Origin: Bacteroidota bacterium
GTDB lineage: Bacteria; Bacteroidota; Bacteroidia; NS11-12g; UBA955
NCBI GenBank assembly: GCA_018333525.1
Contig: JAGXTF010000088.1
Span: forward strand, 32,324-96,323
DNA: 64,000 nt
Direction: 5' to 3'
Position numbers and translations under genes: made by a program. Shown here piece by piece: positions 19,725 through 24,133 of the stretch. The notes beneath the pieces were generated by a model. The model had not been told where the DNA came from. It ran no database searches and worked only from the letters and a program-made list of their open reading frames with translations. The stretch's first letter is position 1. Every line of letters starts with the position of its first letter.

Positions 19725-19757
19725 CCGAAAAAAACATTTCGGATAAATTTGTCGGAA
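19725..19757 (+). promoter_or_regulatory. Two overlapping palindromes over the rrf2 promoter
   Basis: CCGAAA-N6-TTTCGG (19725-19742) is a perfect inverted repeat. TTCGGATAAATTTGTCGGAA (19738-19757) is a second palindrome with 8 of 10 pairs matching, and it covers the -33 box. They are candidate operators for the Rrf2 protein encoded just downstream (autoregulation). No footprinting-based consensus is being claimed. Confidence 0.4.
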
Positions 19758-19778
19758 AAGAAAATATGATTATTTTTG
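19748..19778 (+). promoter_or_regulatory. Promoter of the rrf2-cco operon
   Basis: TTTG (19748-19751), 19 bp, then TATTTTTG (19771-19778), an excellent match to the Bacteroidota promoter, 17 bp before the rrf2 ATG. Confidence 0.6.
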
Positions 19779-19794
19779 CCGCCGCAATTACCCT

Positions 19795-20229
19795 ATGTTT
19801 TCTAAATCCTGTGAATACGGAATTAAGGCAATCATCTATATTGCTAACCAGTCTTTGCAAAAAAGAAGGGTAAAATTGCAGGACATTATTGGGGAAGTTG
19901 GATCCCCTGAAGCTTTTACAGCAAAAATCTTACAGGAACTTGCCAGAAATAAAATTATTATTTCGCATACCGGACCATATGGCGGGTTTGAAATGGATGT
20001 GAAGAATATGAAAAAGGTACGATTAAGTGAAATTGTATATGCAATAGACGGAGATGCCATTTATAATGGCTGCGGGCTGGGTTTAACCGCCTGCTCAGCA
20101 TCACAGCCTTGTCCCATACACCATAAATTTGTTAAAGTAAGAAATGAGCTGAAAATAATGCTCGAAACAACTACCATATATGACCTGGCAGTAGGGCACA
20201 AAAATGCCGCTACCTTTTTGAGACGATAA
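19795..20229 (+). CDS. Rrf2 family transcriptional regulator, probably Fe-S
   Basis: 144 residues. An N-terminal winged helix begins with the family signature FSKSCEYGIKAIIYIA and continues with LQDIIGEVGSPEAFTAKIL. Three cysteines at residues 93, 100 and 106 (spacing x6 and x5) sit where NsrR and IscR bind their cluster, so an oxygen- or nitric-oxide-labile Fe-S cluster is likely. The spacing differs from the x5/x5 of IscR. It is the first gene of a unit encoding a terminal oxidase and a truncated haemoglobin, which fits a redox- or NO-responsive local regulator. Palindromes overlap its promoter. Confidence 0.9.
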   Translation: MFSKSCEYGIKAIIYIANQSLQKRRVKLQDIIGEVGSPEAFTAKILQELARNKIIISHTGPYGGFEMDVKNMKKVRLSEIVYAIDGDAIYNGCGLGLTACSASQPCPIHHKFVKVRNELKIMLETTTIYDLAVGHKNAATFLRR

Positions 20230-20278
20230 AAAAATTTGACCACATTTAAGACAATAAAGTCCGAAATATAAAAATCAA

Positions 20279-22036
20279 ATGGAAAGTAGAAATTTATGGG
20301 GAGAATCAGGAATCTGGATTACCGTCCTGTTAATTGTGATTCCCGTTTTGGCGGCAACCATCATTATGGTTGTAAAAGCCGTTGTAACGCTAAACAAATA
20401 TCTGCGAGAACAAGAGTTGGAGAAATTCAGGAAATATGTCAAGGAATTAAAGCCTGACGAACTTGAAAAATTGGAACGAAGGAAAAAAGAACTCGAATTT
20501 GAGCTCAGCCACAATGAACTCAGTGGTGATGCCACACCAAAAGACAGCAGAGGACTAATAGACTATGTTGACGAGGTTGCCGAACTCCGTTTTGTAGAAA
20601 CCAAAAAGAAAAGTCAGCCACGGCCATCTATTGATCCTGTACTAACCAGACTTATTCTCTGGTATATCGGATGTGCCACATTCTGGCTGTTGTTTGGTAC
20701 CACCATTGGAGAATATCTTGGAATTAAATTTTCAGCGCCTGATATAGATCATTACAGTTGGTTGAGTTTTGGCCGCCTGAGACCTGTTCATACCAATGCC
20801 GTTTTTTGGGGCTGGGCATCGCTGGCCATGGTGGGGCTTGCTTATTATGTGGTTCCAAGGGTTAGCAATGTGCAGATATACAGCATTCGATTGGGTTATC
20901 GAACCTTGATTTTAATAAACCTGTCTGTGATTTTGGGAAGTATTTTTTTAATGGCAGGAATCAATAATGGAGGTGGAGAATACCGGGAATACATATGGCC
21001 GATAATGGTATTGTTCGGAACAGGAATTATTCTGTCTTTGTATAATTTTTATAAAACCATTGCAAAAAGAAATACAAAAGAAATTTATGTGTCCAATTGG
21101 TATGTGATAGCGGCCATGATGTTTTTGTTGGTTATTGCAGTAGTAGCATATTGGCCGGGGTGGCAGAATGGCCTTGGAGAAACCATTGTACAGGGATATT
21201 ATATGCATCAGGGAGTTGGTATGTGGTTTATGTTATTCAATCTCGGATTGATGTATTATTTTCTTCCGCAGCAATTAAATAAACCTATTTATTCTTACAG
21301 TCTGGGAATACTTGCTTTCTGGACACAAATTCTTTTTTATACGCTTATAGGAACGCACCATTTTATATTTAGCGCCATACCCTGGTGGATGCAGACCATA
21401 GCAATTGTAGGTAGCGCAGGAATGATAATACCGGTAGTTGCAGGAACCACAAATTATCTGATGACGTTTAAAGGATCCTGGAGAAAATTATCCGGTAGTT
21501 ATACCCTTCCTTTTTATCTCATTGGTATTATCTTCTATTTTACAGGTTCTCTGCAAGGAACTGCAGAGGCATTCCGTTTTACGAATCTCGTCTGGCATTT
21601 TACTGATTTCACGGTAGCGCATTCTCACCTAACCATGTATGGCATTATCACATTTATGTTATGGGCATTTGTATACACCATTGTCCCCAGACTTACTGGT
21701 AAAGAACCTCCGCAGATTTTAGTCGGTGCGCATTTCTGGCTGGCATTAATCGGCTTGTTGTTTTATACGATTCCATTAATGGTTGGTTCCACATTACGGG
21801 GCATGATGTGGATGGATGGAAAGCCTTTTATAGACAGTGTGGAGTTGATGGCGCCTTTCTGGTTGTGGCGTGCAATTGGAGGTACATTAATGTGGCTTTC
21901 CCATATTCTTTTTGCATACAATGTCTATGTAATGATAAAGAAAAAAGATACCAAAAAAATACCCAAATCATCGAAAGAAATATTAAAGATGAAAATGGAA
22001 TTGGAAATGGAAAATCAAGTGGAAATAATTAAATAA
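20279..22036 (+). CDS. ccoN: cbb3-type (C-family) haem-copper oxidase subunit I, N-terminally extended
   Basis: 585 residues, about 110 more than a typical CcoN. Residues 12-36 are an extra membrane helix and ~40-80 a highly charged coiled coil. Twelve canonical helices follow. Ligands seen: H171 (RPVHTN, low-spin haem), H310 (YMHQGVG, CuB), H360-H361 (GTHHF, CuB), H448 and H450 (AHSH, haem b3 and b). Y354, six residues before H360, matches the His-crosslinked tyrosine of cbb3 oxidases. From H310 on, spacing equals Pseudomonas stutzeri CcoN numbering plus 103 throughout. The conserved Glu (323 there) is Q426 here. The Tyr favours oxygen reduction over NO reduction. Cotranscribed with rrf2 (49-bp gap) and with the cytochrome gene 6 bp on. 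Confidence 0.88.
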   Translation: MESRNLWGESGIWITVLLIVIPVLAATIIMVVKAVVTLNKYLREQELEKFRKYVKELKPDELEKLERRKKELEFELSHNELSGDATPKDSRGLIDYVDEVAELRFVETKKKSQPRPSIDPVLTRLILWYIGCATFWLLFGTTIGEYLGIKFSAPDIDHYSWLSFGRLRPVHTNAVFWGWASLAMVGLAYYVVPRVSNVQIYSIRLGYRTLILINLSVILGSIFLMAGINNGGGEYREYIWPIMVLFGTGIILSLYNFYKTIAKRNTKEIYVSNWYVIAAMMFLLVIAVVAYWPGWQNGLGETIVQGYYMHQGVGMWFMLFNLGLMYYFLPQQLNKPIYSYSLGILAFWTQILFYTLIGTHHFIFSAIPWWMQTIAIVGSAGMIIPVVAGTTNYLMTFKGSWRKLSGSYTLPFYLIGIIFYFTGSLQGTAEAFRFTNLVWHFTDFTVAHSHLTMYGIITFMLWAFVYTIVPRLTGKEPPQILVGAHFWLALIGLLFYTIPLMVGSTLRGMMWMDGKPFIDSVELMAPFWLWRAIGGTLMWLSHILFAYNVYVMIKKKDTKKIPKSSKEILKMKMELEMENQVEIIK

Positions 22037-22042
22037 AATCGC

Positions 22043-23032
22043 ATGCATTTTTTTGATGATCATAAAAAACTTTTCAGGATGGCACTTGGCCTGTTCCTGG
22101 GGCTCACCATAATAATTGCAGTTATTCCTGCATTAAAAAATCAGGCAAATAATGCACCGCTGCCAAATTCAGAACCGCTTAGCAAAGCAGCTGAAGAAGG
22201 CAAAAAAATATTTATCGCAAATGGTTGTGTGGCCTGCCACACCCAACAGGTGAGAAATGTGGATATGGATAAAACCTGGGGAAACAGACCCGGAATTGCA
22301 GCAGATTATGCAGCCAATACCAGAATAGATTTTTGGAGGAATACAGCCACTCTCATGGGCACTGAAAGAACCGGACCGGACCTGACAAATATAGGTATAC
22401 GGCAACCTGGAAAAGAGTGGAATCTCTTGCATTTATACCAACCACGTGCGGTGGTGAACAAATCCATCATGCCTGCTTATCCCTGGTTGTTTGATGTAAA
22501 AAAAGAATTGGTAACGGGCGATGTGGAATTGATAGTACCGGATGAATTTAGAAAAGGTGTAACCGGTAAAATTGTGGCCACCACCGATGCTTTAAACCTC
22601 CTTGCATATTTGCAGAGTTTGAAACAAACGCCGTTGCCACAAGGTATGCAAGAGAGTGAATTTTTATATAAAAAGAAAAGTGAAGTTCCCTCAGCTTCCG
22701 GTGCAGATAAACTGCCCGACGGAAAAATGGTTTATGCAAATAATTGTCAAAGCTGTCACCAGGAAAATGGGGAAGGTCTAAAGGGTGCATTTCCACCATT
22801 AAAAGGAAGCAAAATTGTGCACGGAAATGATCTGGAATTGTATGTTACGATTATCATGAAAGGTTATGATGCAAGAGAGGAATATGCTTCCATGGGAGCA
22901 ATTGGAACCATCAACCATTTTACACCGGAAGATGTGGCTGCACTGATCAATTTTGAAAGAAGCAGTTGGGGAAACAATGGAAAAAAAGTGAGTGCCGCTG
23001 AAGTAAAAAAAATTATGGAAACCCTCAAATAA
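22043..23032 (+). CDS. ccoO: CcoO-like membrane cytochrome c fused to a second cytochrome c domain
   Basis: 329 residues. Anchor helix at 12-30. Domain 1 is CcoO-like: C62-VA-C65-H66, the ERTGPDLTNIGIR segment, LYQPRAVVNKS and axial M143 in SIMPAYPWL. A linker (~150-225) leads to a class I cytochrome c domain with C235-QS-C238-H239 and GAFPPLKGS. Canonical cbb3 enzymes use a mono-haem CcoO plus a separate di-haem CcoP; here one subunit carries one CcoO-type haem and one CcoP-like haem, and no ccoP or ccoQ follows. It is periplasmic and passes electrons from a soluble donor to CcoN. The gene lies 6 bp behind ccoN. Confidence 0.88.
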   Translation: MHFFDDHKKLFRMALGLFLGLTIIIAVIPALKNQANNAPLPNSEPLSKAAEEGKKIFIANGCVACHTQQVRNVDMDKTWGNRPGIAADYAANTRIDFWRNTATLMGTERTGPDLTNIGIRQPGKEWNLLHLYQPRAVVNKSIMPAYPWLFDVKKELVTGDVELIVPDEFRKGVTGKIVATTDALNLLAYLQSLKQTPLPQGMQESEFLYKKKSEVPSASGADKLPDGKMVYANNCQSCHQENGEGLKGAFPPLKGSKIVHGNDLELYVTIIMKGYDAREEYASMGAIGTINHFTPEDVAALINFERSSWGNNGKKVSAAEVKKIMETLK

Positions 23033-23048
23033 ATAAAATAATTTACTG

Positions 23049-23312
23049 ATGAAACGCGGAATATTAATTGTTTTTTTTGCAGTGCTTTCACAGCATTTTG
23101 CACTCTCATGCGATGCCTGTGAGAAACAGCAGCCAGCCATCACCCGTGGGATTACACATGGTAACGGACCTAATAACAACTGGGACTGGGTGATTGTGAT
23201 TGTTATGGTGGTTATTACTTTGGTAACCCTTTGTTTTTCAATATGGTATTTAATAAGGCCGGGTGAAAATCAATCCCGACATATCAAAAGAACCATTCTG
23301 AACTTGCAATAA
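23049..23312 (+). CDS. Small membrane protein of the oxidase operon, CxxC motif
   Basis: 87 residues. It has an N-terminal signal peptide or helix (GILIVFFAVLSQHFALS), then SCDACEKQQP, a short hydrophilic stretch, one strong membrane helix (VIVIVMVVITLVTLCFSIWYLI) and a basic tail. The family is not recognised. By position it could stand in for a CcoQ/CcoH-like small subunit or a metal/haem-insertion factor, with the CDAC pair facing the periplasm. It lies 16 bp behind ccoO and 9 bp before the next gene. Confidence 0.7.
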   Translation: MKRGILIVFFAVLSQHFALSCDACEKQQPAITRGITHGNGPNNNWDWVIVIVMVVITLVTLCFSIWYLIRPGENQSRHIKRTILNLQ

Positions 23313-23321
23313 TTAATTATT

Positions 23322-23729
23322 ATGAATAAAGAAAAAAGCACAATCTATCTTTTTGTAGATGACGATGCACAGCCTATTGCCGAATTGGTCACACCTGTAC
23401 AATTTGAACTGGATACCAGAAAATTAACCGATGGGGAACATACACTTAAGATTGTTGGAAAATCTCCTACAGGAAGGGAGGGAATAAAAAAAATAAAATT
23501 CATGGTTCGGAATGGTCCTGCAATTGATTTGTCAGGAATTAAAGAAAATGATGTCGTAGATGGTGTCATCCCATTAATGGTAAATGCCTACGATAAAGGA
23601 AATCAGAACAATTTCAATATTGTTGGCAGTGAAACTCCTCAGAATGTACCCAACTGGCTGTGGATTTTGCTGGTTGCTTTTCTGGGTTGGGCAGTTTTTT
23701 ATACCATTACTAATTTTAATTTATCATGA
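23322..23729 (+). CDS. Tail-anchored Ig-like protein of the oxidase operon
   Basis: 135 residues, no signal peptide. Residues ~5-105 are strand-rich, like an Ig/fibronectin fold (VTPVQFELDTRKLTDGEHTL, VDGVIPLMVNAYDKG). One C-terminal helix (PNWLWILLVAFLGWAVFYTI, ~112-131) anchors it. I know no named family. With no cleavable signal, the domain would sit in the cytoplasm unless the helix inserts the other way. Its operon position suggests an accessory subunit or assembly factor of the oxidase. Its stop overlaps the next start (ATGA). Confidence 0.68.
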   Translation: MNKEKSTIYLFVDDDAQPIAELVTPVQFELDTRKLTDGEHTLKIVGKSPTGREGIKKIKFMVRNGPAIDLSGIKENDVVDGVIPLMVNAYDKGNQNNFNIVGSETPQNVPNWLWILLVAFLGWAVFYTITNFNLS

Positions 23730-24133
23730 TGTATTACAGAAATACAAAAAGAGAAATAATTTGTTTGGATGATATTAAAGAACTGGTGGATTCCTTCTAT
23801 TCTAAAGTTCGTGAAGATGAGGTTTTGAGTCATATTTTTAATGATCGCATTCAGAATCGCTGGCCGGAACATCTCGAAAAAATGTACCTTTTTTGGCAAA
23901 CGGTATTGCTTGAAGAACACACTTATCTCGGGAGTCCATTTTTACCGCATGCGCAACTTCCTGTTGGTATAGAGCATTTTAACCGTTGGATGGAATTGTT
24001 TAATAAAACGGTGGATGAGAGATTCGCAGGAATTACAGCTACAAAAGCCAAATGGCAGGCAGAAAGAATGGCTGAAATGTTTCATTCCAAAATTGAATTC
24101 TACAAAAACCATCATCTAAAACCTTTGAAATAA
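23726..24133 (+). CDS. Group III truncated haemoglobin
   Basis: 135 residues, full length. The sequence follows the trHb3 pattern: DIKELVDSFYSKVREDEVLSHIFND (A-B helices), KMYLFWQTVLL (E helix), then PHAQLPVGIEHFNRWMELF, which carries the proximal His and the EHFxRW signature. It is cytoplasmic. Proposed functions of the group are oxygen or nitric-oxide handling and peroxide chemistry. Its ATG overlaps the stop of the Ig-like gene, so it belongs to the oxidase operon. It may protect the oxidase from NO or report oxygen/NO levels together with the Rrf2 regulator. Confidence 0.9.
   Translation: MMYYRNTKREIICLDDIKELVDSFYSKVREDEVLSHIFNDRIQNRWPEHLEKMYLFWQTVLLEEHTYLGSPFLPHAQLPVGIEHFNRWMELFNKTVDERFAGITATKAKWQAERMAEMFHSKIEFYKNHHLKPLK

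Follow-up and report, generated by a model that had tools for sequence, protein, structure and literature searches.

Haem-copper oxidases (HCOs) of the C family are known as cbb3-type enzymes: a 2022 review reports only this type in the family, and states that the P. stutzeri cbb3 oxidase reduces nitric oxide (NO) (PMC8780969). A second source describes a mandatory glutamate in the active centre of authentic cbb3 enzymes and points to an "unknown group" in Muntyan et al. 2015 (PMC5492636). Here we describe a six-gene operon in a 64,000-nucleotide stretch of a Bacteroidota bacterium (GCA_018333525.1, contig JAGXTF010000088.1, positions 32,324 to 96,323), called the window hereafter. A literature search on combinations of these genes gave no description of the operon in the titles and starts of abstracts listed. 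Sequence comparisons place its product among the haem-copper terminal reductases of the C family and outside canonical cbb3; we lean, only slightly beyond even, towards a cytochrome-c-fed O2 reductase made when NO or iron-sulphur (Fe-S) damage would disable its own Rrf2 repressor. It likely represents a new, nitrosative-stress-responsive variant of the C family at the subfamily level.

The six open reading frames were confirmed where the original prediction had placed them, with spacers of 49, 6, 16 and 9 bp followed by a 4-bp overlap, and Pfam agreed with the proposed identities (Rrf2, CcoN-like COX1, FixO with a second cytochrome c, bacterial globin). In window coordinates, the features are as follows:

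19736..19759, strand unassigned (.): O1, proposed Rrf2 operator, an inverted repeat upstream of rrf2
19795..20229, + strand: Rrf2-family regulator with Cys triad C-x6-C-x5-C (PF02082, 2.5e-20; TIGR00738, 75.4 bits against a cut-off of 73.3)
20242..20265, strand unassigned (.): O2, proposed second operator directly before ccoN, weak in the window
20279..22036, + strand: CcoN-like catalytic subunit with an N-terminal extra helix and coiled stretch (PF00115, COX1, 2.2e-82)
22043..23032, + strand: CcoO with a fused C-terminal cytochrome c and two c-type haem sites (FixO, 4.9e-25; Cytochrom_C, 1.6e-16)
23049..23312, + strand: 87-amino-acid (87-aa) protein with a signal-like N-terminus, CxxC, one helix and a PGE...HIK tail, at the ccoQ gene position
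23322..23729, + strand: 135-aa protein with an apparent Ig-like domain and FixP_N-like helix, a predicted CcoP layout without cytochrome c
23726..24133, + strand: group III truncated haemoglobin (tHb; Bac_globin, 29.8 bits against a cut-off of 21)

The assignment of the globin to group III was supported by a PDB search, in which its closest solved relative was the group III haemoglobin 2ig3 (5.5e-13), presumably Campylobacter Ctb.

Relatives of CcoN were collected in one scan of genome contigs, which returned 246 stretches; the best 80 of the 246 were kept and read. Several of these loci are short contigs, and the titles of 77 name Bacteroidota or a taxon within it (the exceptions being L024, "bacterium", L029, "Verrucomicrobia", and L036, "Algicola"). 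The search for conserved gene order across Bacteroidota suggested with the original prediction found ccoO in all 80 loci, followed by the 87-aa gene in 77 and the 135-aa gene in 76, together with rrf2 in 69 and the tHb gene in 49. Because the two small genes recur after ccoO to this extent among loci drawn from 246 stretches with a CcoN relative, the gene order is conserved far beyond chance. CcoN itself came in a short (39 loci), a middle (4) and a long form (37), the long form carrying a second N-terminal helix and a coiled unit.

In a tree of 32 rows, the family of the window CcoN formed its own clade (100/100), separate from canonical cbb3 (nine rows, 100/100) and from the NO reductases (NORs; five rows, 96/97). 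The proteobacterial non-canonical rows had no settled place in this tree, from which L125 and L134 were left out and in which long-branch warnings concerned the NorB and qNOR of the window's own genome, Aestuarium NorB and L092. A smaller tree with three canonical and three NOR rows, its bootstrap unsettled, gave the same clades; an earlier 37-row tree built under a mixture model was set aside for its saturated branch lengths. With 251.8 bits, the window protein also stayed below the cut-off of the ccoN model TIGR00780 (583.15). Placed in one tree with NORs, CcoN thus lies outside canonical cbb3, its small partner genes are present in relatives, and the proposal that the operon is a minimal oxidase module of the C family, different from canonical cbb3, is borne out. 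L125 had been considered as a canonical CcoN and was rejected, its correct frame resembling by eye a B-family (ba3-type) oxidase. In L134 (G274:C4:72878-74161), a haem-copper protein of 575 aa, the usual active-site tyrosine seems by eye to be missing; its contig also carries the operon and two NirK genes.

Residues were compared in a family table of 81 rows, with P. stutzeri numbering counted from an alignment to 3mk7. All 81 rows keep the histidine ligands of the haems and CuB and the cross-linking tyrosine that define canonical cbb3, and Tyr354 (Y251), Tyr420 (Y317), Gln426, Glu430 and Gln350 are equally invariant. At the position of the active-centre glutamate, taken as E323, the family has Gln426 throughout, as do six of six further homologues and three of three proteobacterial non-canonical rows; Glu occupies position 426 in all nine canonical rows examined. 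On our own reading of PMC5492636, the glutamate called mandatory there is E323, which is absent in this family. The 81-row alignment further shows Gly at the S240 position (80 of 81), Ala at H243, Met at T215 and Gln350 at L247, and the five CcoN rows from outside the window's class keep Thr at 215. We take S240, H243 and T215 to be K-path residues of P. stutzeri cbb3. The two glutamates that we assume to have active-site roles in NORs are replaced by non-acidic residues in the window CcoN, and the NorB and qNOR rows lack the tyrosine that the family keeps, so the window protein does not have the make-up of a cNOR or qNOR. The original prediction had left open whether O2, NO or both are reduced: the residues favour O2, and the neighbourhood of the relatives points to NO stress.

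Analysis of the 80 loci within 7.5 kb indicated that the commonest neighbour clusters, each named from one representative, were hemerythrin (35), RIC/ScdA (30) and a 2Fe-2S protein (25). Among the 65 loci with at least 7 kb past the ccoN start, 44 encode tHb at some place in the stretch, 34 hemerythrin and 29 RIC, and 51 have at least one of the three. RIC was also found beside the operon outside the window's class, in L107 (TIGR03652 above cut-off) and L109 (ScdA_N plus Hemerythrin), the latter also encoding DUF2249 and COX1-like/NnrS-like proteins.

The regulator belongs to the Rrf2 superfamily, and its cysteine triad recurs in 66 of the 69 best Rrf2 matches of the relatives. It had been described as an NsrR/IscR-like Cys3 protein; the three cysteines stand, and the NsrR equivalog (25.3 against 182 bits) and IscR models (42.8 bits, far below cut-off) do not reach their thresholds. 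A PDB search with Rrf2 gave no match. Within 160 bp before rrf2, the best inverted repeat paired at 10-11 of 11 positions in 15 of 62 regions, compared with 6 of 310 shuffles, and 14 of these 15 repeats start 37-68 bp before the gene. In the relatives, O1 and O2 share at least 19 of their 24 bases in 28 regions out of 61 (5 of 305 shuffles). O1 overlaps a candidate promoter read by eye, TTTG-N19-TATTTTTG, which we take to be of the Bacteroidota type. The own genome contains one copy of the O1 site within three mismatches (reversed control, 0), and eight carrier genomes together contain ten sites at most three mismatches from one consensus, all at the operon by contig and coordinates; no further genomic site indicative of a wider Rrf2 regulon was found in these genomes. 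The predicted "own gas sensor" is therefore retained as what looks like a dedicated Rrf2 regulator, with a candidate operator pair that is evident in relatives and weak in the window.

The window CcoO has two CXXCH motifs, as do its counterparts in 77 of 80 relatives. The original prediction held that ccoP and ccoQ are missing, which is largely overturned, and that the two small membrane proteins match no known family, which needs correction for the 135-aa protein. Searches with the window's 87- and 135-aa proteins gave only sub-threshold Pfam and NCBIfam matches, for the latter to FixP_N (E 0.076) and Big_7. Homologues of 270-277 aa (L100-L104) occur in five phylum genomes outside the window's class (G074, G274, G294, G250 and G224) and combine an Ig-like domain, a FixP_N-like helix and a cytochrome c in one chain. 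All five exceed the Pfam cut-offs for Cytochrome_CBB3 and Cytochrom_C and match FixP_N at nearly identical profile columns (E 0.006 to 2.1, below cut-off), and six of 14 short-form members match FixP_N as well (best E 0.013). A profile comparison with three canonical CcoP proteins gave 1.9e-11 over helix plus cytochrome. Because the long homologues share these domains together with the cytochrome, and because of the profile match to CcoP, the 135-aa protein is assigned the CcoP layout without its cytochrome. CXXCH is absent from all 76 copies of the 135-aa protein in the 80 loci and present in the five other-class homologues; several public records that call the protein "cytochrome C" are hereby corrected. 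Its predicted structure (predicted local distance difference test, pLDDT, of 70; moderate) is loosely Ig-like, with no fold match at E 0.001. We infer that the cytochrome was lost from the 135-aa line rather than gained elsewhere.

The 87-aa gene lies between ccoO and the 135-aa gene, the position of fixQ in the canonical R. etli operon. It occupies the ccoQ slot, and the Pfam search returned no FixQ match. All 77 copies of the protein in the 80 loci carry CxxC; four other-class homologues keep the tail and lack CxxC, and no homologue was called in the fifth genome. The other-class CcoN proteins (471-478 aa) have no N-terminal extension. Since the other-class loci with a cytochrome have neither CxxC nor the CcoN extension, the absence of a third-subunit cytochrome, the CxxC and the extension occur as a set, a pattern that G194, from the window's class, also follows. 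A small CPxC-plus-helix protein of similar build to the 87-aa protein is encoded beside aa3 oxidase and SCO-like genes on contig C118 of the own genome (L089:15179-15481).

As to INDEPENDENCE from canonical cbb3, the own genome also has an aa3 oxidase and a canonical CcoNO set, together with two NOR relatives named by eye and alignment: a qNOR-like protein and a NorBC-like pair. The canonical set, on contig C89, comprises a CcoNO fusion, ccoP (FixP_N), ccoG and ccoS and is preceded by a heavy-metal P-type ATPase; a ccoH-like gene there was named by eye and had no NCBIfam match. The notion of an oxidase without ccoP, ccoG and the like must be corrected accordingly for this genome. That the module can be self-contained is supported by the set of 58 carrier genomes: 53 have canonical CcoN and ccoG (52 above cut-off; G298 through two partial matches below it), and five, G308, G319, G324, G250 and G294, have neither (ccoG matches in G294 reached 34 and 19 bits only, below cut-off). 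The gene ccoS, sought in ten genomes, was absent from the same five and present in the five others, so that, in gene content only, the CcoG and CcoS assembly genes are missing from five of 58 carriers. Completeness is 97% for G250 and 99% for G294, and the three named isolates have no such figure. Cultured carriers lacking canonical cbb3 include Paradesertivirga mongoliensis KCTC 52859 and Chitinophaga chungangae MAH-28. G250 also encodes a further 558-aa HCO, B-family by eye.

The system is patchy in the phylum. In an evenly spread sample of 296 genomes, the 135-aa profile gave ten matches, of which those in G134 and G255 were dropped as long unrelated proteins; the eight remaining, own genome included, amount to about 3% of the sample. 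Among plasmid records, 418 match CcoN, none of them at 60% identity or more. A recurrent neighbour of the operon, seen in 14 of the 80 loci (L065:11830-12279 and 13 others), is a 149-aa membrane protein without Pfam match.

We therefore propose a working model that remains conditional. Rrf2 would carry an Fe-S cluster and bind O1 and O2, from which NO would release it. A soluble cytochrome c would hand electrons to CcoO, first to its C-terminal and then to its N-terminal haem c, from where they would pass to haem b and finally to haem b3-CuB; a haem b:c ratio of 2:2 is predicted. There O2 would be reduced with the help of Tyr354, and the enzyme would probably also reduce NO on the side, an activity reported for cbb3. 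Proton entry may be re-routed, S240, H243 and T215 being replaced and the invariant Gln350 lying one helix turn from Tyr354. The 135-aa protein, having lost its cytochrome, would retain the structural helix part of CcoP; the 87-aa CxxC protein may aid metal or haem insertion, and the haemoglobin may bind or remove NO.

Several observations weigh against this model. Enzymes of the cbb3 type, which share the tyrosine, are able to reduce NO. In the window, O1 pairs at 8 of 11 positions, no better than shuffles, and O1 and O2 agree at 16 of 24 bases, within the shuffle range of 15-17. Neither hemerythrin nor RIC lies beside the window operon, the RIC of the own genome adjoining NorBC on another contig, and 14 of the 65 long loci have no tHb, hemerythrin or RIC. 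All FixP_N matches of the 135-aa family fall below the Pfam cut-off, the helix alone resembles CcoP weakly (E 0.062), and cytochrome c552 and NirK tails are closer than CcoP to the cytochrome c found in the other-class homologues. Finally, five NirK carriers have, among the matches listed, no HCO other than aa3, canonical cbb3 and the present enzyme, which would suit an NO reductase.

An NO reductase on a cbb3-like scaffold, converting NO to N2O with electrons from cytochrome c beside haemoglobin and repair proteins, is the chief alternative, and we consider it unlikely. The NO-stress neighbours of the relatives and the replacement of the canonical E323 agree with it, as does the NO reduction by P. 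stutzeri cbb3 reported in PMC8780969. When HCO classes were assigned in 50 carriers from bit scores and frame lengths among the matches listed, as against each genome's total, 23 had no HCO apart from aa3, canonical cbb3 and the operon's own; these included five of the 11 NirK carriers among the 50. Against this stand Tyr354 in every family row, with NorB and qNOR lacking it, and the absence of both NOR glutamates. NirK is not enriched in carriers (12 of 58 against 47 of 296 in the phylum sample above cut-off, p 0.44), and the own genome already has its qNOR-like protein and NorBC-like pair. The NorB-like gene of that pair (L088:4989-6320, contig C6) adjoins a NorC-like cytochrome, RIC (above cut-off) and a Crp-like regulator; its product has no His/Glu at the usual helix VI positions (SMVGAWNQ compared with HLWVEATWE in NorB) and is possibly an atypical NOR.

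Quite unlikely, in our estimate, is a low-oxygen cbb3 isozyme whose Rrf2 senses Fe-S status or O2 and for which NO has no special role. Such an enzyme would fit the O2-type residues and the 14 long loci without NO neighbours, several of which are Kaistella and other Weeksellaceae, and a Hymenobacter plasmid also encodes a group III tHb (L094:81-470), with 3.4 kb between it and a canonical cbb3 operon. It is opposed by the 51 of 65 long loci with tHb, hemerythrin or RIC and by the RIC genes beside the operon in L107 and L109. That the small genes encode unrelated membrane proteins, with the CcoP and CcoQ readings arising from position alone, is very improbable: the weak FixP_N matches and the lack of a FixQ match would allow it, and the single-chain architecture of the five long homologues, with FixP_N at nearly identical columns, and the profile match to CcoP argue against it.

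A bolder reading is put forward only tentatively, namely a separate kind of C-family reductase that would be independent of CcoG and CcoS, cytochrome-c-fed and dedicated to NO stress. It would have Gln for the active-centre Glu of cbb3, take up protons by a re-routed path through the invariant Gln one turn from the catalytic tyrosine, use an Ig-domain CcoP that has ceded its haem to CcoO, and be governed by an Rrf2 switch of its own. The family offers natural variants for probing the roles of CcoP, CcoG, the Glu and the proton path, and hints at a way in which respiration might continue in some Bacteroidota exposed to NO.

Among known systems, the proteobacterial non-canonical C-family proteins (S. 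meliloti L092, C. metallidurans L091, P. aminovorans L096) resemble the family in Gln426, Glu430 and the retained tyrosine, but they are only 30-33% identical over the full alignment and have Leu where the family has Gln350; no Ig-helix subunit was seen in the 7-kb stretches read, and no CcoP-like gene in those of L091 and L092. Two of these CcoN proteins (L091:2911-4500 and L096:2815-4362) start, by eye, with a CcoS-like stretch, and the S. meliloti CcoO (L092:4350-6014; 554 aa) contains additional cytochrome c domains, the next genes encoding a helix protein of 74 aa and TauE/SafE. A possible counterpart is the "unknown group" that PMC5492636 names from Muntyan et al. 2015; the glutamate that PMC5492636 holds mandatory for authentic cbb3, taken here as E323, is missing from the family. 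With cNOR and qNOR the family shares the superfamily and, in relatives, the NO context, but it forms a separate clade, keeps the tyrosine and lacks the NOR glutamates. Unlike the setting of 2ig3, the tHb here shares one gene run with an oxidase and an Rrf2 regulator. Canonical cbb3 (CcoNOQP, or a CcoNO fusion plus CcoP in Bacteroidota) is matched in the COX1 family, the metal ligands, the position of the catalytic tyrosine, CcoO and the order N-O-(Q position)-(CcoP layout). The family differs from it in its own clade, Gln for Glu at E323, the changed S240, H243 and T215 positions, a cytochrome c on CcoO with none on the third subunit, and the absence of ccoG and ccoS in some carriers. Set against the C family of only cbb3-type enzymes in PMC8780969, this is a clade outside canonical cbb3 that combines Gln for Glu with a haem-less third subunit and, in some carriers, no ccoG or ccoS.

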